Assembly: GCF_032884065.1 (NCBI RefSeq)
Contig: NW_027062662.1
Coordinates: 2,114,052 to 2,178,051 of the forward strand
From: Artemia franciscana
Taxonomy: Eukaryota > Arthropoda > Branchiopoda > Anostraca > Artemiidae
Length of the DNA: 64,000 nucleotides
Direction of reading: 5' to 3'
The notes under the pieces are model-generated. The model had not been told where the DNA came from and ran no database searches. It saw nothing but the letters and a program-made list of their open reading frames with translations. The position numbers and the translations under genes were made by a program. Shown piece by piece: positions 12,661 to 63,239 of the stretch (its first letter is position 1; each line of letters opens with the position of its first letter).

Positions 12661-13143
12661 TTGTCTTAAAAAACAGCATTTTAGCGCTTGCAAGTAGCAT
12701 ATAAACGACCGGTAATTATTGTGTTTAAATAATAACATTTAATAAATTAAAATAAATATAACACACCTGAAATTATTGACCTTCCTATTTAAGAAGAGCC
12801 CGTAGGACCAACCCCACCAATGGCAAGACTTGTGTGATAAAAGTTAATTGTTTGTTACAAGTGAGTTATATAAAAATGTACTCAGGATTCGTGATAAAGA
12901 GACACAACTTAATACCCTCCCCCAAGACGAGCATGTAATCAGAAATTTAATCCCGGGAGAGGGGTAAATTTAAAAAAACAATCTCAAAAATAGGAAATTG
13001 CACAGAAAGCATGAGAAATTACAGGAAAGGTTCCTATGGGAACACATGTCTGGTCCGAAGTCTATGGATACTCCTTGACATTATTGTTGCACTTGTTGAT
13101 AATCAAAGTTTCAATAGAACAATTAATTACATACAAACATATG

Positions 13144-13677
13144 CAGATTAACGCAAACAAGGCCAAAGTCATGGTCACATCACGACAGGAGATGATATAC
13201 CCCCCCCCCCATTCCCTCGATAGTAACAGACGGTGAAAAAGTTGAAGTAGACGATCAATTCCGTTACCTCGGCAGACTCTTGACAGCTGACACATTGTCA
13301 ACATTAAACGCCGTCTCGGTCTTGCCAGCTCTAGCTTCAAAAGACGATCAAAGATCTGGAGATCTAGACACGTTTCAAACCATCTGAAAGTGCATCTATG
13401 CAACAGTCTGATCATACCCATTGCTCTGTATGGGTGTGAAACCTGGACATTAAAAGCTGAACACGTGCGCAATCTCCTTGCATTCGAAATGATATGTCTG
13501 CGCCGGATAGCCACGACCAGATATACTGACCATGTCACAAACGAAGAAGTCGGAAGAAGGCTCAAGTCACAATACACTATCCTGAACAAAATCCAAAAAT
13601 TACTTTGATGATTACTTACTTACTTGATTAGACTTAGGTCTTCCCACGCCGGCTGGCGCATAAGGTGACGACCAACC
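13144..13677 (+). mobile_element. LINE (RTE-like) C-terminal fragment, duplication copy 2
   Basis: Counterpart of 466-1001 with the same broken frames (ALYGCETWTLKAEHVRN and others) and the same TTAC repeat at its end. A few substitutions distinguish the copies, for example GRRLKSQ here against GKRLKSQ in copy 1. Confidence 0.75.
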
Positions 13678-14789
13678 CAGTTTTATAGATAATGGACAAG
13701 CGTTTGATTCAGCGGAGAGTACAGCTTTAGCGAAGGTTTTATCCTTGCACAGTATACCAGATAAATACAGTAAAGTGATTAGTGCTATGTACAAGAACAA
13801 CATCGCTGTGGTTAAGGTTAGAAATAAGATTAGTACCTGATTTTGTAACAAATCCCGATCTTTCGCGTTCTATCCCAGTTTGTATGGAGCAAATTGATGG
13901 AAATTGTCCTAAGGAACATGGCAAAGTATATGGGAGAGCATAGAATAGCCTAAGAAAATTCAAATACCTTGGATTTTGACTATGCTCATGATTTGATTGT
14001 CCTAAGTAAAAATTTAGCAAAATAAATGAGTTTTTGGACGTTTTGAGAGTTCAAGGTGCAAGAACAGGTTTGGAAATTAATTTTAAGAGGAATAAATCGC
14101 TAAGACTGTGAATAAGTGAAGGTGAAGAAGTGATGTTCTAGAATGACAAGGTCAATCAAGTGGATAGCTTCACTTACCTAGTTAGTATTATTCATGAAGA
14201 TTGTAGATACACTGAAGATTTTAAATGCACAATAGCCAGGGTAATGTACTGTATTTTCCATGGTATATATTGTACAGTATTTTTCATGGTGGAAAAAAAT
14301 TGCAAGAATTGGAAGCTAAGTCTGCAAGACAAGATTAGAAAAATTTGAAAATACGGAGATGAAGCCGTCAAGTCTGGCTCTGAAACGCGGAGATTCCGAA
14401 AGACATATGAGGATTTGTAACATTTTCCAGACAAATTGTCTACGGATTCTTTTAGATACCCATCTGACTGACAGTGTTTTAAACGGTAAGCTGCACGAAA
14501 ATCTGGCACTATACCGCATTCTAGGGCTACAATGCGATAAAGGTTGATATAACTAAGACACGTTCTGCGGATGAAGGATGACAAATCGTAAACCACCTTC
14601 CTTTTTGATCAATCATCTAGGGCCAAACAAAACCAAGTCTTCCCCGAATAAGGTGGTCGTAAGGAAGAATTTAACGGGAAATGTTACTTCTTGGGAGGAT
14701 GTAAAGAGGGAGGCTTTAACTATATTAGGATGGAGGAGGAGCATGCATGGCTAGTTGGCCTGAGCGCGTTGTTAGTAGTAACAGTAATT
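13678..14789 (+). mobile_element. LINE-A 3' fragment, duplication copy 2
   Basis: Counterpart of 1002-2113. It begins at the same internal RT position and ends in the same TAG/GTA-rich tail, so its truncation point predates the duplication. Confidence 0.8.
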
Positions 14790-15138
14790 AGTTGAACGTA
14801 ACGACACTTTTTATTCGATTCAAACAAAAACAATCCGTAGGTTCCCAAAGACAAACTTACCTTCAAAGGAAACCTACATCCTCTTGAACTTTTTGTTGTA
14901 CTTACCTCTTCTTTTTTTAATTTGGCAACAACCAGAAACCGAACTATCCTGTTCATTTTTCATTAGAAATTGCATTCCCATTTTTTTAAATTTTAAAGTT
15001 ATATACGATTGCAAAAGTTTGCACTTAACCAATCTAAAAAATCGCATTTTATTTTCAATGTCCTTGGTAATTCAATGACTAATAAGTGATTTATTATCAC
15101 TTTTATCAATGTTAGAGATAGAAAATTAAAATTTTTAC

Positions 15139-27252: not shown

Positions 27253-28640
27253 AGATAAGATAAGATTTATTTGCAAAAGAACTATCACAAGCTCTAAAGA
27301 GCCGAATTCGCTTTATATGTCACTAAAAGCTAAGAAAAAAATCAAAATAGTACATTAAGTCAAACACTTAAAATTAAAAGGAATTAAAAAAGCAAAATCA
27401 TCAAAGATAAAGCAAATTCATCAAAGAATAAATCATCAAAGATAAACTTAACAATTAAATTACAAAAACATTGCAGTAAAAAGGGGAATTTGGTAATTAC
27501 ATGATCACGAATTATTATTTAGGTGTTTCAGAATAAATGGTATAAAACTTTTGCGAAACCTTTCTGTAACAGCATGAATCGGAGAGTAAGTTGGGATTGC
27601 TAAGGAGGCTGACCGGGGGAGTCGGAGTCTAATGGGATTGTGAAAATCAGGGAGTAAGTCCTCAGTGCGGGGATTGGAAATGACTGATTTAGCGAAAAGC
27701 AGGCAAATTTTTTCCCTCCTTTCTTTTAAGGTGGTAATGCGCGCAGCTTTAAGGAGGAAGGAGTATGGAATTTTGCCTTCTTTGTAAATGATCCTGAGCG
27801 AACGCTTTTGGACCGACTCGATTTTGTCACTAAGTTCATTTGAAAGTTGCGAATGCCAGACCGGACATGCATATTCCAATAACGGTCTGATAAAGGATAA
27901 GTAAACACGGAGGGAATGTATCTTAGGACAATTAAATTTGTTTAGTAGCTTAAAAATGGATAGTGAAACATTTGCTTGTTTAACAATGTTGGATACATGT
28001 GTTTCCCACTTAAGATCATTAGAAATTGTGACACCAAGAAGCTTAACATGTTTCACTAGCATTTCGCTTGGGATCGGATCGCAAAAAGCAGGAGTAGATT
28101 TCAAGAAGTTGATTGTCATTATCTGTGATTTAGTGGGATTTACTGTCATATTTAGATTCTTGGATTCATCCGAACATTGGGTTAGGATTTCAACGGGGTC
28201 ACTTTTAATATTCCTATGACATACTTCAAGGATCGACAAGTCATCAACATATTTCCATCGTTGGGGGAACTCCTTGCCAATTTCGTTAATCATGACAAGA
28301 AATAATAGTGGTCCCAATAAGGTTCCTTGAGGTATTCCACAGTACCTAGGGAGGGGGTTAGAGAAGGTATTTTTGTATTTTACAACTTGTGATCTGTCTG
28401 AAAGGAACGATATAACAATATTTACTAAGAGTGGGTCAATTTCAAAGTTATCATGTAGTAGACGAATTAGGATAGTGTGGTTAACTAAGTCAAACGCTTT
28501 TTGGAAATCGACTAAAACCAGGTTTAGCCAAACATTTGGTTTCTCTAGTTCACTTAGGATCGTGTGAATCAAGTGTACAAGGTAATGGGTGGTGGAGGTT
28601 TTTCTTAAATTACCAAACTGTCATTTGAAAGGAATGTGAC
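27253..28640 (-). mobile_element. CR1/Jockey-like LINE, 5'-truncated, RT mostly intact
   Basis: A minus-strand frame of about 375 codons runs from 28620 to 27505. It begins QFGNLRKTSTTHYLVHLIHT and continues through LVDFQKAFDLVNH (RT motif A), GIPQGTLLGPLLFLVMINEI (motif B region), the catalytic YVDD, and a full C-terminal region with FIRPLLEYACPVWHSQL, ending at the stop at 27505. A TGA lies directly upstream of QFG, and no RT start or endonuclease was seen, so the copy is 5'-truncated. About 250 bp of 3' UTR end near 27253 in a gataagataagattta-type tail (plus-strand view). It is the longest retroelement frame here and probably fairly young. It lies in ABCD4 intron 1 in sense orientation. 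Confidence 0.9.
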
Positions 28641-42056: not shown

Positions 42057-43200
42057 CAAGGGAAATGGTAAAATTCTAGTTTTGCTACTTTTTAGCTATC
42101 TTGGAAAGGGGTTAGGTTAGGGAAGTAAAACTTCCAGTAATGAATCCAGGACCAAAAACATACTCTGGTAAGGTATTGCCAAGCTTCTATGTTAAGACTC
42201 TTCTGATTTCCAAGTCTTTAAAATTTGCCTATGTGACAGGTCTATACCTATTGGAATTTGACAAAACAACATTTTACCTTAATTTTCAGTGATGGGTTTT
42301 TTTTTTGTTTTAGTTTGAACATGTAATTCTTGTTATTTGAGTAAAATTATAAGTCATCAATATTTTTTTCTAAACTTAGGAAATGTATTTGCAAATTTCT
42401 TAAACCTCATAAATTGGGATTAAGCAAAGTTGTGAAGCTGAAAACAGTTTTTGTTGTACTTCACTTAAGCAAAAGCTTTATTGTGCAAGGTTTTAGTTTC
42501 ATATTACAAAGATTTTTAAAAGTCATCAAAGGTCACTGTCCTCTAGAAAGAGAAGGAGTGGAGGCAGGTAGACTTACTTCAAAATATCTCCCTTAGACAT
42601 ACTTTAATCTGCAGATCCATCCCTGAAAGTTTCATTTTCCTAATCTACAAAATAGATCTTCTGCTCAAATGAAGTACAAGAAAACTGTTTTCAGCATCAC
42701 AACTTTGCTTAATCCTGATTTATGAGGTTTCAAAGATCTGCAGATATATTTCTTTGATTTAGAAAATACCCATTGATGTGGCCTAAATTCTTTACATATA
42801 ACATGAATTCTATTTTCAGAACTAAAACCAAAGAAATGATAACTGAAAATTAAGGTAAAATGTTTTGGCAAAATTTCAATAGGTTTGGACCTGTCCAATT
42901 GGGAAATTTCTAAGACTTAGAAATCAGAAGAGGATTTACACAGAAATTTGGCAATATCTTCCCAGAGTATGTTTTTGGCCCTGGATTAATTACTGAAAGT
43001 TATATTTTCCTAGCATAACCCCTTTCCAAGATAGCAAAAAGTAGCAAACTAGAGTTTTAATAGGAAAATTTCAAATACTAGATACCAGAAGAGGGTTAAC
43101 ATTGAAGCTAGACAATAACTTGTCAGAGTAAGTTTTGACTCAGGATCTATTAGCCTAGTGAAAGTTTCATTTTCCTAACCTAACCCCTTTACATGATGGC
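42057..43200. repeat. Large imperfect inverted repeat with extra tandem segment
   Basis: The left arm (about 42057-42475) is matched in reverse complement by about 42668-43080. The inner parts share attaagcaaagttgtgaagc / gcatcacaactttgcttaat; the outer parts share ctatcttggaaaggggttag / cctttccaagatag. The segment at about 43080-43200 is a second direct copy of part of the right arm (ctaacccctttacatgatgg). The centre is near 42570. It ends about 130 bp from ABCD4 exon 1, within intron 1. Confidence 0.85.
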
Positions 43201-43458: not shown

Positions 43459-43742
43459 GTCAGCAAGTAATTAATTCAAAGTCAAGACAGAATCTGAAAG
43501 AGTTGCCGAATATTATGAGACACAAATATCTTTGAACCTTATCAACTGGAAAAATTTGCCGGAATCTTTCCAGCAAGACTTTGTCCATAGGAATACAGCA
43601 AGGGCTATATGAGACCTTCGTTTTGAATGAAAAAGTAATAGTCTGATACGCTTTGAGTGTGTTATTTAGATAAATTTTGGCAAAATTAATTAATTTTTAA
43701 AAGTTTTGAAACTACTATTCCTCTGGCGTCCACGTTTCCGTA
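43459..43742 (-). promoter_or_regulatory. ABCD4 5' flank squeezed against a transposon
   Basis: Only 284 bp separate the start codon from the left end of the DNA transposon at 43743. This must hold the 5' UTR and perhaps the core promoter, or an intron into an upstream non-coding exon (a ctctttcag acceptor-like string lies about 30-40 bp above the ATG). No clear TATA box or initiator can be named. Confidence 0.4.
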
Positions 43743-43863
43743 TAGTCAGGGAGCCACTCAACGAAAATGTGTCGGGTAGGTGATCAGTGAGCAGCAGAAG
43801 GTTTGACAACGGAATATGGGGTAATAGATAGCGCTGATCACGAAAATGGGTGTTATATACTCG
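43743..43863 (+). repeat. Left terminal inverted repeat of the Academ-like transposon
   Basis: Perfect for its outer 15 bp, then blocks of strong similarity to the right end: ggtgatcagtgagcagcaga (about 43779-43798) and cgaaaatgggtgttatatac (43841-43860). Confidence 0.85.
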
Positions 43864-44304
43864 GCCGGGGGGTGCTTGACCCCGAAAATTGAAAATTTCG
43901 TGTTTTTTTTTATTATTAAATCACGTTTCGGAAAAATTTCCACAATGATCGCCAAATCTTTCGTAACTGATGCCAGAAGTGACGAGTACAGTAGGGACCA
44001 TCGCTAATGACCTTGAAACTTGCAATTTTATTTTTTTTATTCGCGCTGGAAAAGATTTCACGCCTAGATTCAGCTGGTAGCGGATAGTTTTATTATCTCA
44101 GACAGGAAGATTGCCACTATACTCGACAATGACCTTGATTACAACTCTCTTTCATTCCTAATCAGAATTATTAGTAAACTTGACAAGATTATTATTCAAT
44201 AAGCTTGAATAAACAAAAAAAAGATTACTATACTAACACCTGCTACGGATTTCGTGAACGGCACTTGTTACTACAAAAGTTAAAAAGTAGCTCAGCATAT
44301 CAAA

Positions 44305-45936
44305 TTATCCATCAAGCATATCAAACTCGTCCATAAAACACTTCCCACCACAGCCACAAAGTAAATTGCAAGGTCTATTTCCAGCACATGAACATTTTTT
44401 TGTACAGCGCTTGCACGAGCAGTACTGGGGGACCACACCTTCTGAAAATGCCTGAAGGGTAGACACAACTGGCCTAACCCCACCGTCTTGAAACATCCAG
44501 CCAAATTGCAGGGGATCCAGAAACTGTGGCTTTGCTTGATTTGCTTGCAAAAAAATGTCCAACTGCAGGTATACGCGCTTAGCATGACACTCAAAGGCAG
44601 CGTCAGATGGTGGCAAATACTTAAGCTCCCGCTTTTGAGGGTACAAATGCACTCTTAATTCATTAAGAGAGGTAAAGTGGTCTGGGTCTTTTCCGTATGA
44701 GGCAACAACGACCTTTTTGCAAATCACACTGAATTTTTCTAGAACCGCAGGGTCGAGCTTTGACTTCTGTATCTCTTGGACAAGCAAAGCAATCGGTTTC
44801 TCCAATCCCCATTTCTCGACAGCCTTGGCCACCACTCGTTTTCCTTTAGAAAACATGAAACCCACGGTATCACACCCTGAAAGCGTATGAAGAAGGCAGA
44901 TGGAGTGAACAAAATCGTTCGGTAAATTGCTGCAAAGCCGATGTATAGGCACTAAATAGCTGTGGAACCTGACATAAACTTTCCGCTTTTCACAATTTGG
45001 GTGGTTCCCAAGGAATAACTTGTAGTGATATAGCAAGACGACAACTATGTCTGTGTCATTCGCATCGACCAAAACGACATCGAAACCCCTCTCCAAACAG
45101 TCCAACATGTGTAACACAACTCTTGTATCGGCCTCTTCATGGGTACAGCTCAAACGCTCTTCAGAGTTTGTATCAGCATTTCCACTTCTGTTGAGCATCA
45201 CCACTCTCATCCGGTCTCGAAAGCCTCCTGAGAGGTACACAGTGAACCCTGCTTGCAGCAGGTGAACTGAGTTTTCAAACTCACCGAATAGAAGCTCAAT
45301 CAGTCTTGCCTTTGTCTTGGAATTTGAGAGCAACGAATTCCAGTCATCTAGGGTTGTGTGTCTACCTAGAGCTACCGGAGACCTGTTTGAACATCCTCGC
45401 TGCTCATGGCAACCACCGCAGTCCTTTAGGCAGATCACCTTGCCTTCTTCGTCGGAATATCCAAAAATCCCAGCATATCTATCTGCAAGGACGTGCAGCT
45501 CCTTAACGTTGCTGTTGAAAGACACAAGCGTAGAAAATGTCCGTTTTCCATAGCTCTCAACGGTTTCCGATGGATTTGGTGGATGGCTTCTGAGGTAGGG
45601 CATCAAGTCTACAACCCTTGAGTGAGTCGACTCACTGCTAATCTCGAGGTTAACGGGCCACTCGCTCAAGCTGATTTTTGTTTTCAAATACTCCAGAAGA
45701 GCTGACTTTGTTCCTGTCCGAAGCACAACCATTCCAGATATGGCACTTCTCTGGAATATAGAAGGTGCATATGGAAGAAGCTCATGGGAAAGCAAATTCT
45801 TTAGATGGTGAAGTCCTCTTTCGCCTGTAAAGTCAACACTCACCAATACCCTTTTGACAGTTTGAAGTTCAACATCGGTAAGGCTATTTACAGCACTAGA
45901 AGTATTGGTTGCTTTTTTTCTGTTTCGCCTTCTCAT
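44305..45936 (-). CDS. Academ-like transposase, C-terminal frame (543 aa)
   Basis: Probable catalytic part of the transposon protein. Visible motifs: a Cys cluster CLKDCGGCHEQRGC (169-182), HEEADTR (266-272), DANDTDIVVVL (291-301), SGCDTVGFMFSKGK (353-366) and a Cys-rich tail of ten cysteines (506-533, CSCKRCTKKCSC and so on). EAD-R, DTD and GCDT in this order and spacing resemble the acidic metal-binding residues and helix-hairpin start of XPG/FEN nucleases (EAEA, D-D, GCDY). That is my inference from pattern, not a search. The frame overlaps the end of the 343-aa frame and has no good start of its own; its first Met is inside the overlap. It runs without introns to a stop 563 bp inside the left end of the element. 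Confidence 0.85.
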   Translation of the reverse strand: MRRRNRKKATNTSSAVNSLTDVELQTVKRVLVSVDFTGERGLHHLKNLLSHELLPYAPSIFQRSAISGMVVLRTGTKSALLEYLKTKISLSEWPVNLEISSESTHSRVVDLMPYLRSHPPNPSETVESYGKRTFSTLVSFNSNVKELHVLADRYAGIFGYSDEEGKVICLKDCGGCHEQRGCSNRSPVALGRHTTLDDWNSLLSNSKTKARLIELLFGEFENSVHLLQAGFTVYLSGGFRDRMRVVMLNRSGNADTNSEERLSCTHEEADTRVVLHMLDCLERGFDVVLVDANDTDIVVVLLYHYKLFLGNHPNCEKRKVYVRFHSYLVPIHRLCSNLPNDFVHSICLLHTLSGCDTVGFMFSKGKRVVAKAVEKWGLEKPIALLVQEIQKSKLDPAVLEKFSVICKKVVVASYGKDPDHFTSLNELRVHLYPQKRELKYLPPSDAAFECHAKRVYLQLDIFLQANQAKPQFLDPLQFGWMFQDGGVRPVVSTLQAFSEGVVPQYCSCKRCTKKCSCAGNRPCNLLCGCGGKCFMDEFDMLDG

Positions 45937-46927
45937 TATTCATGACCTTTACTTTGCTAAAGGCACCTTTTTCACCGTCCAAGTAGCGATCAGCCGCTCT
46001 GCTTCCAACAGATCGCACACTGAGGAGACTGTCAGCTATCTCACTATCAACTGTCTCAAGCGTATAAATATTCAGCATATCTTCGTCAGTGGATCGAAAG
46101 GGATTGAGCCTGGCTTCCAGAACAGACTTCACTTTATCAACAGCCATGTGTTGCCGCAGAACGAAGGAAGGGTGATCGTCGTGGTGAGAGGAGTCAAATT
46201 CAGTCTGGGGAACAATGCGTAGCATCTCAGTGAATGTAGACGAGACTGAGGCACAGAACGGAAGAGTTAAAATCCACTTCACCAGTGCCAACTCATTCAT
46301 GGTAATACCCGTCATTCCACCTTCCGTTTTTGAATCTAAATTAATGGTAGATTCTACAGCATGGTCTGGGGATATGCAGTTGAATTTTGCATTCCTCCTC
46401 TTCACATTGAACAGTCCATTGTGGAATGCCTGATCTACTTCTTGAGGTAAGCCCTGCATCTCAGCCAGGTACTCAATCAAGCAAGTGCCATACTTATAGT
46501 GACCACATGCAACTAAATAAGGAAGCATTTTGCTAGCTCCTTCAAGATGGCCATCCCAGTCACCAGATCTTTCACTGTACAAAAACTGCCACAAAACCAG
46601 TACCATTTCTTTGTACTGCTTCCAGAACTTGTGGGTTTTTGAGCGTGCACGAGAAGTCTCGAACCTTTCTAACCACGGGGACAATGCGGTAAGTTTTTCC
46701 TTTAGACAGTTCAAGTTCTCATCACCCTCTCTTGAGATCTTCAAGTTTTGCAGTAAATCTCCCATTTTTTCAAAGATAGTGATGCACGATGAATCGTCTG
46801 ATTCTGCGCAAAAATCTTCGAAAGCTTCCCAGTATAGAATGGATATTGCCTCGAGGACTAACGTATGAGCAGCGAGAGCTTTATAGTACGGTTTACCACT
46901 CATCACTTTTAGGTTAAGGTCCTCCAT
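45896..46927 (-). CDS. Academ-like transposon protein, N-terminal frame (343 aa)
   Basis: Opens MEDLNLKVMSGKPYYKALAA. It contains the block DWDGHLEGASKMLPYL-ACGH-KY and the block FHNGLFNVKRRNAKF, D-A-E, GGMTGIT and ALVKWILT. I recall these in the same order in large uncharacterised invertebrate proteins that carry the HEEADTR domain further on. It ends in a stop just after a run of seven A residues (KQKKSNQYF) where the 543-aa frame takes over. Removing one A would join the frames into a single protein of about 870 residues. The ATG lies in a 26-bp tandem duplication (46921-46972) that creates a second ATG upstream, out of frame. Family members I recall are longer at the N-terminus, so upstream sequence may be missing. 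Confidence 0.8.
   Translation of the reverse strand: MEDLNLKVMSGKPYYKALAAHTLVLEAISILYWEAFEDFCAESDDSSCITIFEKMGDLLQNLKISREGDENLNCLKEKLTALSPWLERFETSRARSKTHKFWKQYKEMVLVLWQFLYSERSGDWDGHLEGASKMLPYLVACGHYKYGTCLIEYLAEMQGLPQEVDQAFHNGLFNVKRRNAKFNCISPDHAVESTINLDSKTEGGMTGITMNELALVKWILTLPFCASVSSTFTEMLRIVPQTEFDSSHHDDHPSFVLRQHMAVDKVKSVLEARLNPFRSTDEDMLNIYTLETVDSEIADSLLSVRSVGSRAADRYLDGEKGAFSKVKVMNNEKAKQKKSNQYF
45911..45917 (-). pseudogene. Frameshift point in the transposon gene (A7 run)
   Basis: On the coding strand cagaaaaaaagcaacc holds seven A. The downstream frame starts one base later than the upstream frame, so continuity needs loss of one base or a +1 shift. A common -1 slippage would not work. A one-base insertion in the homopolymer, in the genome or in the assembly, is the simplest reading. 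Confidence 0.8.
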
Positions 46928-47472
46928 AATTTTTTTAGTTTAAGGTCCTCCATAATTTTGTGTTTAGACTCCTTTGCTTGACTTTTTCTATTCAGCTTAT
47001 CTTGGAAAATCTATCTGGCCGGGTGAACCCTGACGCATTCACACTGGATAGATGCCGCTGCTTATCCGAGCTAAAAATTGGGTCAATCCGCTTTTCTGTC
47101 AATAGTTCAAAAACGAGAAGAGTTAGAGAATTTCTGGATCAGTCATTTTGTAGGACAATAAATTTCCTACAGAAGCCATTAAAAAAAAATACACCTCAGT
47201 CAGGGAAATTTTCAAGATGGATCAAGATTAATCCAAAAGAGAGATAAATTGTGTTAACTTTTTCGTCGAAATTTTGTGATTACAACTGAACGGCAAAAGA
47301 TAAAAATGTTTTGAAAAGAGAACATGATTCTTTATTTAATTACCTTCGATCTGAGGTATAGCTGAACAATTTTGGAGTAACCTGTAATTTTTTATCGATT
47401 TTAATATAATTTTTACCAGTTAAGATGGATTTTTAGGGAATTTGAAGAAATGTGGATGTCGCACCCATTTGT

Positions 47473-47602
47473 CGACTATATAACGCCAATTTTCGTTTTC
47501 AGCATGGTCGATTGCATTAGATTGAACACTCAAACCTTCTGCTGCTTGCTGATCACCTCAATCCTTAAATATCAACATTTCTCTCGTGTGGCTCCCTGAC
47601 TA
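47473..47602 (-). repeat. Right terminal inverted repeat of the Academ-like transposon
   Basis: Mirror of 43743-43863, with actatataacgccaattttc (about 47475-47494), tctgctgcttgctgatcacc (47538-47557) and the terminal GTGGCTCCCTGACTA (47588-47602). Confidence 0.85.
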
Positions 47603-47643
47603 GTACCATATTTGTCCAGTTTCATCACTGAAGCTTCCAATAT

Positions 47644-48430
47644 CAAACAGTTCGCTCTAACGAACTGTAGCAAGGAGCAACACGGCTCAATAGTATCCAA
47701 AAATCTAATGCCATGATACCAAAAGTTACTTCAAAAGAATTGCATTTTAATGCTGATTTTAAATATATAAATTTCATCAATATTACTCTTAACCATCAGA
47801 AGTTACCAGTCTGAAAAAATTTGCCTCATTTTAGAAAATAGATGTGAACACCCCTTGAAAGTCATACAATATAAATGAAAATCGTACTGATTCAGCGTAT
47901 CAAAGAACCCTATTGTAGACGTTTCAAGCTCCTATCTACAAACATGTGGAATTTTGCATTTTTTGCCAGCCAACTCCCCCCAACGTCAGCGTATCTGATC
48001 GGGATTTAAAGTGAGAGATCTGAGTTACGGGGTCCTTTTAAATATAAAATTTCATTAAGATACGAACACTCCTTCTTAAATTAAAATACCTAATTTTTTT
48101 CGTTTTTCAAAATTAACCCTCCCCCCTCCCCAACTTCCCCAAATAGAGCGAATCCGTTCCGGTTATGTCAATCACGTATCTACAATCTTCTCCTTATTTT
48201 TCCCACCAAGTTTCATCCCGATCCCTCCACTCTAAGCGTTTTCCAAGATTTTAGGTTCCCCCCTACAACTCCCCCCAATGTCACTTGATCTGGTTGGGAT
48301 TTAAAATAAGAGCTCTGAGATACGATATCCTTCCAATTTCAATGAATATCCCATCACCCGTTCGTAAGTTAAAAATACTTCATTTGTTCTCTTTTTTCCG
48401 AATTAACCGGCCCCCACCCCCCACAGATGG
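47644..48430 (-). repeat. Repeat family R1, copy in minus orientation
   Basis: Begins with the family end motif (aacagttcgctctaacgaac), then gtagcaaggagcaacacggctc-like sequence, ctgattttaaatatataa, the tttgcctcattttagaaaat segment and ttcaagctcctatctac. From about 47975 it continues into two tandem units of the 285-bp type also seen, inverted, at 60900-61950. It starts 42 bp from the right end of the Academ-like element. Confidence 0.8.
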
Positions 48431-50589: not shown

Positions 50590-51399
50590 AGCACCCATCA
50601 TGGAAATTCTCTTCCCTCATGATAAGTTCCTCCATGGAAAGATCCTTCCACGTAACCCCATCCCCCGACCCACTCCCATTCCGACGCGAAAAAGTCCCCT
50701 TGAAAACTTCTGTACACTTCATAATAACCATTACTATATGAAAACAATGGTCAAAGTTTGTAACTTGAAGCACCTCCCCCGGGGATTGTGGGGGATTAAG
50801 TCGTCCCCAAAGACATAGTTATTAAGTTTTTGACTAAGTTGAATAGAATGGCTATCTCGAAATTTTGATCCGGTTACTGTGGAGAAAAATATGCATGGGA
50901 GGGGGCCTGGGTGCCCTCCAATTTTCTTGGTCACTTAAAAAGGGAACTAGAACTTTTATTTTCCATTAGAATGAGCCCTCTCGCAACATTCTAGGACCAC
51001 TGGGTCGATGAGATCACCCCTGAGAAAAAAAAAAAACAAACAAATAAACACGCATCCGTAATCTGTCTTGTGGCAAAAAATACAAAAATCCACATTTTTG
51101 TTGATAGGAGCTTGAAACCTCTACAGTAGGGTTTTCTGATACGTTGAATCTGATTGTGTGATTTTTGTTAAGATCCTATGACTTTTAGGGGCTGTTTCCC
51201 CCTGTTTTCTAAAACAAGGCAAATTTTCTCAGGCTCGTAGCTTTTGATGGGTAAAACTAAACTTGATGAAATTTATATATTTAAAATCAGAATTAAAATG
51301 CGACTTTTTGATGTAACTATTGGTATCGAAATTTTGTATTTTAGAGTTTCGGTTACTATTTAGCCGGGTCGCTCCTTATTACAGTTCGTTACCACGAAC
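50590..51399 (+). repeat. Repeat R1, left arm of a large palindrome
   Basis: The most complete plus-oriented R1 copy. It runs from the catggaaattctcttccctc region through ccaattttcttggtcactta, gagccctctcgcaacattct, caaacaaataaacacgcatc, aggagcttgaaacctctaca and ctcaggctcgtagcttttga to the hairpin-like end acagttcgttaccacgaact (51376-51399). Confidence 0.9.
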
Positions 51400-51625
51400 T
51401 GTTCACTCCATTTATCTTATTTCTCGGATCCGAAGAAATCGAGTTACCAAAAACTATCTGATGGCTACTTTTCCGATTTGTCAGCATCCCCTTGGTACAT
51501 GAAAAATGTGAGTTAACGTGTTATTATTCACGCGTTTTGTAGTTAGTTCATGTAGAGTTTGCATTGAGTTTTTGCCTGTTTTCACAATCTGAAAATAAAA
51601 GTGAGATCTTTTTCGATTAAATCAA

Positions 51626-52375
51626 ACAGTTCGTGGTAAAGAACTGTAGGAAGGAGCGACCCGGCTCAATAGTAAACGAAACTCTTAAAAACCGAATTTT
51701 GATACTAATAGATGTATCAAAAGAATCAAATTTTTATGCTGATTTTAAATATATAAGTTTCATCAAATTTTTGTCTTACTCATCAAAAGTTACGAGCCTG
51801 AGAAATTTTGCCTTGTTTTGGAAAATAGGGGGAAACACCCCCTAAAAGTCATAGGATCATAACGAAATACCATCGCATTCAACGTATCAGAGAACCCTAC
51901 TGTAGACGTTTCAACCTCCTATCTGCAAAAATGTGGAACTTGTATTTTTGCCAGAGGACCGATCACGGGTGCGTGTTTATTTGTTTGTTTTTTTCCCAGG
52001 GGTAATCGTATTTGATACCAATAGTTACATCAAAAGAATCAAATTTTAATGCTGATTTTAAATATATAAGTTTCACCAAGTTTAGTTCTACCCATCAAAA
52101 AGTTACGAGCCTGAGAAAATTTGCCTTATTTTAGAAAATAGGGGGAAACACCACCTAAAAGTCAGAGAAAATCACACCATCAGATCCAGCGCATCAGATA
52201 ACCCTACTGTTAAAGTTTCGAGCTCTTATCACCACTTATCATATTTTTTTGCCAGAAGCCAGATCACGGATGCGTGTTTATTTGTTCGTTTTTTTTTTCC
52301 AGGGGTGATCGTATCGATCAAGCGGTCCTAGAATGTTGCATGAGGGCTCTTTCTAACGGAAATACATGCCATCTA
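51626..52375 (-). repeat. Repeat R1, right arm of the palindrome
   Basis: Reverse complement of 50590-51399, starting at aacagttcgtggtaaagaac, 226 bp after the end of the left arm. It contains an internal duplication: the segment from gtcatcaaaag/ttacgagcctgag through tttgccag appears at about 51720-51960 and again at about 52020-52255. Confidence 0.9.
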
Positions 52376-59279: not shown

Positions 59280-60760
59280 TCAGATTTGTCATTCCATTCA
59301 TAAGTTATAGGCCCTACTAAATTAAAGGAAAACTCAACTTTCTTAAGACTTGACACCCTCTCTCCCTCACCCTATTTGAGATAGGGTTCGTGATACCGGA
59401 ACTGGGTATGAGCCCTGATCTTAGGCATCTTTGGTCTAGTTTTCATTCGGATCCGTTACTCCATTTGCAAGTTATACTAAATTAAACAGAAAACTTAACT
59501 TTCAGGAATTAACACCCAATCCCCCTTGTTAAATTTGAGCTAGGGTCTTTATCTCAAAACTTGATATGTGTCATGGTCTTAGGCCTCTTTGGTTCAATTT
59601 TCATTCAGATCCATCACTCCAGTCGCAAGTTACTCTGAATTAAACAAAAACTGTTTTTAGCAGGTAAAGGCCTCACCCCCCTGTTTTATTTTAGCTAGGG
59701 TTTTCATCTTTCAACTTGATGTGTCTCATGATCCTTGGCCCAAAATCTGGCCATCAAAATCTCCATCCAAATCCAACCAGCGGTTCTCCCCCTATACATG
59801 ATTACACAGACGGACGGACAGGCAGACAAGCGGACGGATTTCGCAACGTCTTAGGTAGCCATGTTGGCTCATTGGATCCAAAAAAGGAAAACAATAGCAT
59901 ATCATCATCCAGGGATCATCACCTATTTGGATAGTGGCAAATATCCATCAAGATAGGTTTTTGAGATCTGTTTGTCTGTCCGCCCGTCTGTGCAATCGAG
60001 TATAGCAGGAGAACCACCAGTCAGATTTGTATTAAAATTGAACTATTTGGATTAAAATTGAGCTTAATTAGGGCAATGGGGCTTTTAGTGTTAAAAAAAT
60101 TGAGTTTTTCATTTAATTCACTGTAACTTGCAAATGGAGAGATGAATTTCGATGAAATTTTAATAAAGATGCCTAAGAGTATGATATGCATTGAGTTCTG
60201 GGATGGAGACCCAAGCTTAATTAAGGCGAGGGGGAGGGGGCTTTAAGTGCTTAAAAATATAAGTTTTTTGTTTGGCTCAGTTTAACTTGCGAATGAAGTA
60301 ATTGGATCTCAATGAAAGTCAAGCCAAAGATGCCAAAACCATAAGACACGTAATGTTTGGAGATGAAGACCCTAGCTTAATTAAGGGGAGGGGGCTTTAA
60401 GAGCTAAAAAAAGGTTGAGTTTTTCATTTAATTGAGTGTAACTTGCGAGAGATTGATGTATCTCAGTGAACATTAAACCAAAGGTGCCTAAGACCGTGAC
60501 AGGCATCAAGTTTTGAAATGAAAACCCTAGCTCAAATAGAACGAGCGGGAGTGGGTTTTAAGTGCTGAAAAAAGTCAAGCTTTTGGTTTAATTTAGAATA
60601 ACTTGCGAATGGAGCAACGGATCCAAATGAAAGCTAGACCAAAGATGACTAGGATCAGGGCTCATATTGAGCTCTGATATCACAAACCTTATCTAAAATA
60701 GGGAGAGGGGGAGGGGGTTTCAAGCATTAAGAAAGTCGAGTTTTCCTTCAGTTTAGTAGG
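59280..60760. repeat. Palindrome made of tandem repeats of about 150-170 bp
   Basis: Left arm units have aagttat/aagttac anchors at about 59303, 59473 and 59628. Right arm units, reverse complemented, have taacttgc anchors at about 60125, 60287, 60433 and 60602. The arms meet near 59935 around gacggacggacaggcagac / gtctgtccgcccgtctgtgc. Units share tgatatgtgtcatggtctta and ttcattcagatcc. No coding. Confidence 0.85.
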
Positions 60761-60899
60761 GCCTATATCTACTTCCACATTGGCTTGCCCAAAGCCTGGA
60801 AATAACCCTTTTCCAAAATAAGTCATATTGAAGCCAACCTTCAACCAAATATTCCATCCCCAGAGAAAAATTACTTTGTATGGCACTTGGTATTTACTA

Positions 60900-62089: not shown

Positions 62090-62890
62090 AGAAGATTTTC
62101 GACTTAGTCTCATAGTTTTTGCCCCTTCATGGTGTGAAAATTACTGCGAGAAATAGACAGGTTGCAACTTCTGCCGTTTCGTCTTCTATTATATTTAAAT
62201 ATGTGCTTGCATCGTGCCTGCTTCCCCTTAAAAGTTCTGTTTCTTATGGTAATATTGGTTTGTCTTCTGTTGCATATGCAGACGACGTTCTTCTTGTTGC
62301 CTGGACTTGCCGTGGATTCCAATTTTACTATATTAACCAATGAACTATCTAAGATTGGACTGTCAGTTAATGCGTCTAAATGCGAGTTTATTTGTTTTAA
62401 TAGCCCTTATGCGGTCGCTCCATCCGTTGCTGGGACTGCAATTCTGCCATGTTCTTCTTAAGTTAGTTGCCTTGGTCTGAGTTTCGGTCCAATACTTTCC
62501 ACTACCTATTCATCCCTAGTGTATCAAGCCATGAAAAACCTACGCGTCGTTTACAGAAAAATATCCCCAAACAAAAGCCGTTACAACCGCAACGGTTTGT
62601 GTATGATTTATAACGCTTATTGCGCCCCTGTGCTTTTGTTTTTATCGGGCATGGCTCAACTGTTTCGTAAGACGAATCGCCATACTCTACGTGCAGCTTA
62701 TTTAAGATATTGCAAATTCCTCCTCCGGCTTCGTAGATGGCACCAAAACAGAAAAACAATTGCTCGATTTGGTTTAATAGATATGCCTTCTTGGATTCGG
62801 TCTTCCAGTGATGATTTATGTAAAAAGACTATCTACTTTATTCACGTTTACGACCCTCTGCAGCCTTTTTTCCATATTAATACTGGTTAA
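62090..62890 (+). mobile_element. Non-LTR retroelement RT C-terminal half
   Basis: Plus-strand frames read LPLHGVKITARNRQVATSAV, then LSSVAYADDVLLVAW (catalytic YADD, about 62269-62280). After a shift comes IGLSVNASKCEFICFNS, and from about 62471 a longer frame with VYRKISPNKSRYNRNG, YNAYCAPVLLFLSGMAQLF and RHTLRAAYLRYCKFLLRL, to a stop at 62888. The clade was not assigned; the C-terminus differs from LINE-A and from the CR1-like copies. The frameshifts make it inactive. Confidence 0.8.
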
Positions 62891-63239
62891 TTAGTCCACG
62901 TTGTCTTTTGTTAGTTCGAATTGTTTTTCTTGCTGTTTATCGTTTTTGTTTTTGTTTATTTACAATACTCCGTACTTTGTGTTTTTTTTATACTTTTACG
63001 GATAATAATGTTCTTCTTGGATTCGGTCTTCCAGTGATGATTTATGTAAAAAGACTATCTACTTTATTCACCTTTACGACCCTCTGCAGCCTTTTTTCCA
63101 TATTAATACTGGTTAATTAGTCCATGTTGTCTTTTGTTAGTTCGAATTGTTTTTCTTGCTGTTTATCGTTTTTGTTTTTGTTTATTTATAATACTCCGTA
63201 CTTTGTGTTTTTTTTATACTTTTACAGATAATAATGTTC
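62788..63239 (+). repeat. 226-bp tandem duplication of the retroelement 3' end
   Basis: The segment from ttcttggattcggtcttcca at 62788 recurs at 63014, offset 226. It covers the last 33 codons (SDDLCKKTIYFIHVYDPLQP and onward), the stop and the 3' untranslated part to ataataatgttc. The copies differ at only a few bases, so the event is young. Confidence 0.95.

Follow-up and report, generated by a model that had tools for sequence, protein, structure and literature searches.

The window analysed here is a stretch of 64,000 nucleotides from the genome of the brine shrimp Artemia franciscana (contig NW_027062662.1). It contains a putative DNA transposon of 3,860 bp, bounded by terminal inverted repeats and a GTA on either side, with two overlapping open reading frames on the minus strand that correspond to the middle and C-terminal parts of one large protein. 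The features of the element are as follows (positions are those of the window):

43743 to 47602, no strand: whole element, 3,860 bp, delimited by the terminal inverted repeats and flanking GTA
43740 to 43742, no strand: left GTA, putative 3-bp target site duplication, from the sequence of a single copy
47603 to 47605, no strand: right GTA, putative 3-bp target site duplication, from the sequence of a single copy
43743 to 43880, plus strand: left terminal inverted repeat, perfect over its first 15 bp, from a local alignment between the ends
47458 to 47602, minus strand: right terminal inverted repeat, perfect over its last 15 bp, from a local alignment between the ends
44305 to 45936, minus strand: open frame of 543 amino acids, C-terminal part of the family protein (FEN/XPG-like nuclease and cysteine tail)
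44338 to 44421, minus strand: nine-cysteine, CXC-like tail (Cys 506–533 of the 543-residue frame), from alignment columns
44512 to 45711, minus strand: FEN/XPG-like nuclease domain (residues 76–475 of the 543-residue frame)
45896 to 46927, minus strand: open frame of 343 amino acids, middle of the family protein, from the list of open reading frames and homology
45913 to 45919, minus strand: run of seven A, site of the frame shift from one open frame to the other
46907 to 46958, no strand: 26-bp tandem duplication where coding homology ends, probable deletion junction
46959 to 47457, no strand: no coding remnant detected by tblastn; N-terminal half of the family protein absent

Ends of the element

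The ends are as the first-pass annotation described them, with 15-bp perfect inverted repeats, longer imperfect repeats around these and a GTA on both flanks. The terminal sequence TAGTCAGGGAGCCAC lies at 43743–43757 and its perfect inverse at 47588–47602, and these are the only two sites in the window when up to three mismatches are allowed. Two or more equally loose matches were found in 17 of 100 shuffles, and the weight therefore lies on both sites being perfect, inverted and extended. The extension is apparent when the two ends are aligned locally with gaps, as the alignment spans 138 and 145 bp and scores 110; the maximum among 500 single-base shuffles of one end was 46. In a harder control, pieces of 150 bp were drawn from the window and paired at random; 1 of 3,000 pairs reached 110 and 11 scored at least 50. 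The four top scores of this control (110, 98, 80 and 76) fall in other repeats, inverted or dispersed, in which this window is rich; the highest came from an inverted repeat of ~350 bp, 82% identical, at 59303–59652 and 60418–60770.

The match of the flanking GTA triplets is weak by itself, because a 3-bp match at one fixed site is expected by chance in about 1 in 64 cases. A query made by joining the two flanks in a script found no empty site in the window, as no match spanned the junction; apart from matching itself, the query showed only one-sided similarity to nearby repeats or to short stretches alike by chance. Taken from this single copy, the ends support a DNA transposon with terminal inverted repeats and a putative 3-bp target site duplication.

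Reading frames, damage and protein family

The interior had been annotated as one intronless gene in a nearly intact element. Neither description holds, since the upstream part of the same protein is carried by the overlapping 343-residue frame, which is read in another frame of the minus strand, and the copy has lost ~650 residues from the N-terminus of the family protein. The public protein P0002 (782 amino acids, from a contig of 4,121 bp) is 97% identical to the 343-residue frame (328/339) and 96% identical to the first part of the 543-residue frame (229/238), and runs continuously across both, including the point where the frame shifts. A base-count error in the assembly may lie behind the shift at the A-run. 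A-rich runs of this type serve programmed ribosomal frameshifting in some mobile elements, and the shift does fall in the seven-A run, so that the two frames could be joined during translation in a gene that is unbroken there. However, P0002 is continuous at the same point, and the joined product would still be without the aspartates of the Asp-Asp-Glu (DDE) triad of a transposase; we regard such frameshifting as very improbable.

The loss of the N-terminal half is seen in several comparisons. Aligned to P0036 (1,443 amino acids), the window copy starts at about residue 655, and residues 1–212 of P0002 have no match in the window. None of the 147 family proteins matched 46900–47602 by tblastn at E 0.5, while 134 of the 147 did so when the stretch was extended to 45900–47602 as a positive control. 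The coding homology ends beside the 26-bp tandem duplication, which also provides the ATG start codon of the 343-residue frame and would fit an internal deletion whose edges were joined through filler sequence. As judged from these alignments, the window copy is internally deleted and frame-shifted relative to its kin, and its putative transposase core is gone except for the last part. We consider it likely that the element belongs to a family of cut-and-paste DNA transposons and has, with its internal deletion and frame shift, lost its autonomy. Such a deletion derivative makes a poor reference element, contrary to the use first proposed for it.

The family search scored 7,998 candidates and found at least 138 proteins at E 0.001 or better. 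Full-size proteins were taken as those of at least 1,300 amino acids, a cut-off of our own choice that 46 of the 147 family proteins pass. Simple patterns for D, D, H, E and three XPG blocks occur in this order in 40 of these 46; among the other six, a single pattern is missing from four proteins, two are missing from one, and four from P0115, a longer fusion. The matches listed include proteins from insects, a sea spider, an annelid, a mollusc, a sponge, fishes and a hagfish, and mostly carry labels such as 'hypothetical', 'uncharacterized' or 'CXC domain-containing'. By this spread of sources the window would probably be animal DNA. One family protein of 1,318 amino acids (P0065) is filed under a Sedimenticola metagenome-assembled genome, most likely because DNA of the animal host was binned with its symbiont. 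Of the 98 rows, 71 were long enough for a tree, in which the window copy has a long branch in a supported clade of 12 rows, separate from the main clade of 59 rows. Scans of viral contigs (1 and 105 pattern stretches) and of genome contigs (67) yielded no relative by tblastn.

Predicted nuclease and transposase domains

The blocks HEEADTR, DTD and GCDT are present in the 543-residue frame as annotated, and the proposed XPG/FEN-type nuclease is strongly supported by acidic residues, an HMMER alignment to Exo1 and the predicted fold, which is that of a 5'-nuclease (PIN-like). All seven acidic residues of the putative active site are kept in the window copy (D110, D152, E268, D270, D294, D296 and D356). 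The Exo1 alignment spans six of the seven; D110 was assigned to its FEN counterpart by strand position and conservation. Pfam gave no match to the 543-residue frame at E up to 10. Weak matches to PIN-type families among the 26 relatives of set A5, namely NYN_YacP (0.0074, 1/26), XPG_I (0.019, 1/26) and 5_3_exonuc_N (0.13, 2/26), agree with a 5'-nuclease. The domain resembles FEN1, XPG, Exo1 and GEN1 in its predicted fold, in the positions of its acidic residues and in a G-C-D block followed by G-K. It differs from them in that identity to the solved chains listed is just 8–16%, and in that the nuclease of the relatives is fused to a putative transposase and a cysteine tail.

This tail counts nine cysteines rather than the ten first reported. 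In the 98-row alignment, 67–70 rows are filled at each of the nine positions and 66–70 of these have Cys, and a strict pattern for the tail occurs in 30 of the 46 long family proteins. The Pfam family TCR was seen in relatives, and only below threshold.

The preserved seven acidic residues and nine-cysteine tail, in 543 open codons, might also be expected of a working stand-alone, domesticated FEN-like gene that is no remnant of a transposon. The proteins P0006 and P0007 (636–647 amino acids), which begin partway through the family protein, would be in line with this. Yet the frame sits inside the terminal inverted repeats, and its first codons are an out-of-frame reading of a stretch that P0002 reads in frame further upstream. 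We regard a domesticated gene as highly unlikely, and we retain the reading of a damaged transposon copy.

Evidence for the transposase comes mainly from the relatives. The window copy keeps only the Glu of the putative DDE triad: E192 of the 343-residue frame (codon 46352–46354) is the candidate third catalytic residue, and the aspartates are missing. Pfam PF20231 (DUF6589), a domain of unknown function, matched the 343-residue frame below threshold (E 0.056) and residues 123–449 of P0002 under the cut-off (E 2.5e-5), while P0012 clears the cut-off with 28 against 27 bits; matches at E up to 1 occur in 8 of the 26 A5 relatives. Two further matches, FRB_dom in the 343-residue frame (E 0.0063, under the cut-off) and HsdM_N in P0005 (E 0.22), were set aside as probably due to chance.

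The structure model of P0027 has an RNase H-like core with a helical insertion ahead of the last catalytic Glu, and its fold matches, at 6–10% identity, point to a core of the Hermes/ISCth4/Transib type. The core of the model is thus like that of hAT (Hermes), ISCth4 and Transib/RAG1 transposases. The longer relatives differ from these in the C-terminal fusion to a FEN-like domain, and the window copy in that most of the core has been deleted. The family protein (~1,300–1,600 amino acids) appears to combine zinc-finger-like and winged-helix N-terminal modules, a DDE core of RNase H fold that contains a helical insertion and overlaps DUF6589, a FEN/XPG-like nuclease and the nine-cysteine tail. 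On balance we favour the reading that DUF6589 belongs to a DDE transposase domain, which an animal-wide family fuses with a FEN/XPG-like 5' nuclease and the cysteine tail in one chain.

Possible affinity with Academ, surroundings and implications

Academ elements make target duplications of 3–4 bp and encode an XPG-like nuclease and a Cys-rich domain; a RecQ helicase marks only part of the superfamily and was not treated as a defining trait. By such general features the present family resembles Academ in its proposed cut-and-paste movement, a putative short target duplication, an XPG-like nuclease and a Cys-rich region, and Academ fits as the closest named superfamily, compared by description only. 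Of the traits behind the Academ label proposed in the first-pass annotation, the XPG-like nuclease and the Cys-rich tail were both found in the family.

In the literature, Academ is placed among the DDD/E superfamilies (PMC9587614), its description in Repbase is credited to Kapitonov and Jurka 2010 (cited in PMC4455052), and a RecQ helicase is named for it (PMC3627910). Three further papers report Academ-labelled elements from a whitefly, a fungus and Daphnia, among them one gain event of Academ-1 in Daphnia magna lines (PMC9143410, PMC11075540, PMC8594854). In contrast to the helicase named in PMC3627910, no helicase was among the 19 Pfam families listed for the 26 A5 relatives, nor was one listed for 8 further relatives or the window frames. 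This difference, the Hermes/ISCth4/Transib type of the predicted core, and a comparison made by traits instead of sequences leave room for placement in another superfamily, be it named or unnamed, with an independent DDE and FEN architecture. The shared nuclease and Cys-rich domain and the putative duplication length argue against it, and we consider it a possible but rather unlikely alternative. Among the papers listed for Academ and XPG none was on the subject, as judged by titles and abstract openings, and searches of the same library for DUF6589 and for transposase with XPG nuclease found no paper; among the listings and passages covered, we found no publication describing the combination of DDE core, FEN/XPG nuclease and cysteine tail.

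The surroundings of the element are rich in repeats. A large imperfect inverted repeat (42069–42485 and 42648–43059, 81% identical) lies directly to its left. Dispersed repeats at 51030–51403, 51625–51994 and 47642–47969 are 79–86% alike in both orientations, and one copy begins ~40 bp to the right of the element. Elsewhere, 1–2253 and 12661–14928 form a direct duplication of ~2.25 kb, 98% identical and ~12.7 kb apart, with a nearly identical open frame of 175 amino acids in each copy, and 62787–63239 is a tandem duplication of 226 bp with 98% matches. A 355-residue frame at 27505–28572 on the minus strand has a reverse transcriptase domain (RVT_1, E 4.2e-17) and is a retrotransposon remnant that probably resembles long interspersed nuclear elements. 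Rfam and tRNA scans of the window gave no match.

The ends, architecture, predicted folds, conserved residues and damage of this copy are compatible with a mechanism of which the chemistry, order and division of labour are our proposal. The N-terminal modules and the cysteine tail would bind DNA and the element ends, the DDE core would cleave the ends and insert them at target cuts staggered by 3 bp, and trimming of 5' flaps or cutting of the non-transferred strand could fall to the FEN-like domain. The window copy, lacking a complete DDE site, would be mobile at most in trans, with protein from an intact relative.

The copy described here is thus mainly a caution, as a deletion derivative. 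For the family, reading these uncharacterized proteins as a transposase with a flap nuclease would give testable catalytic residues for both activities and would tie DUF6589 to DNA transposition. If this is correct, the family would represent a cut-and-paste transposase with its own flap nuclease, which may serve in second-strand cleavage or in repair of the insertion gaps.
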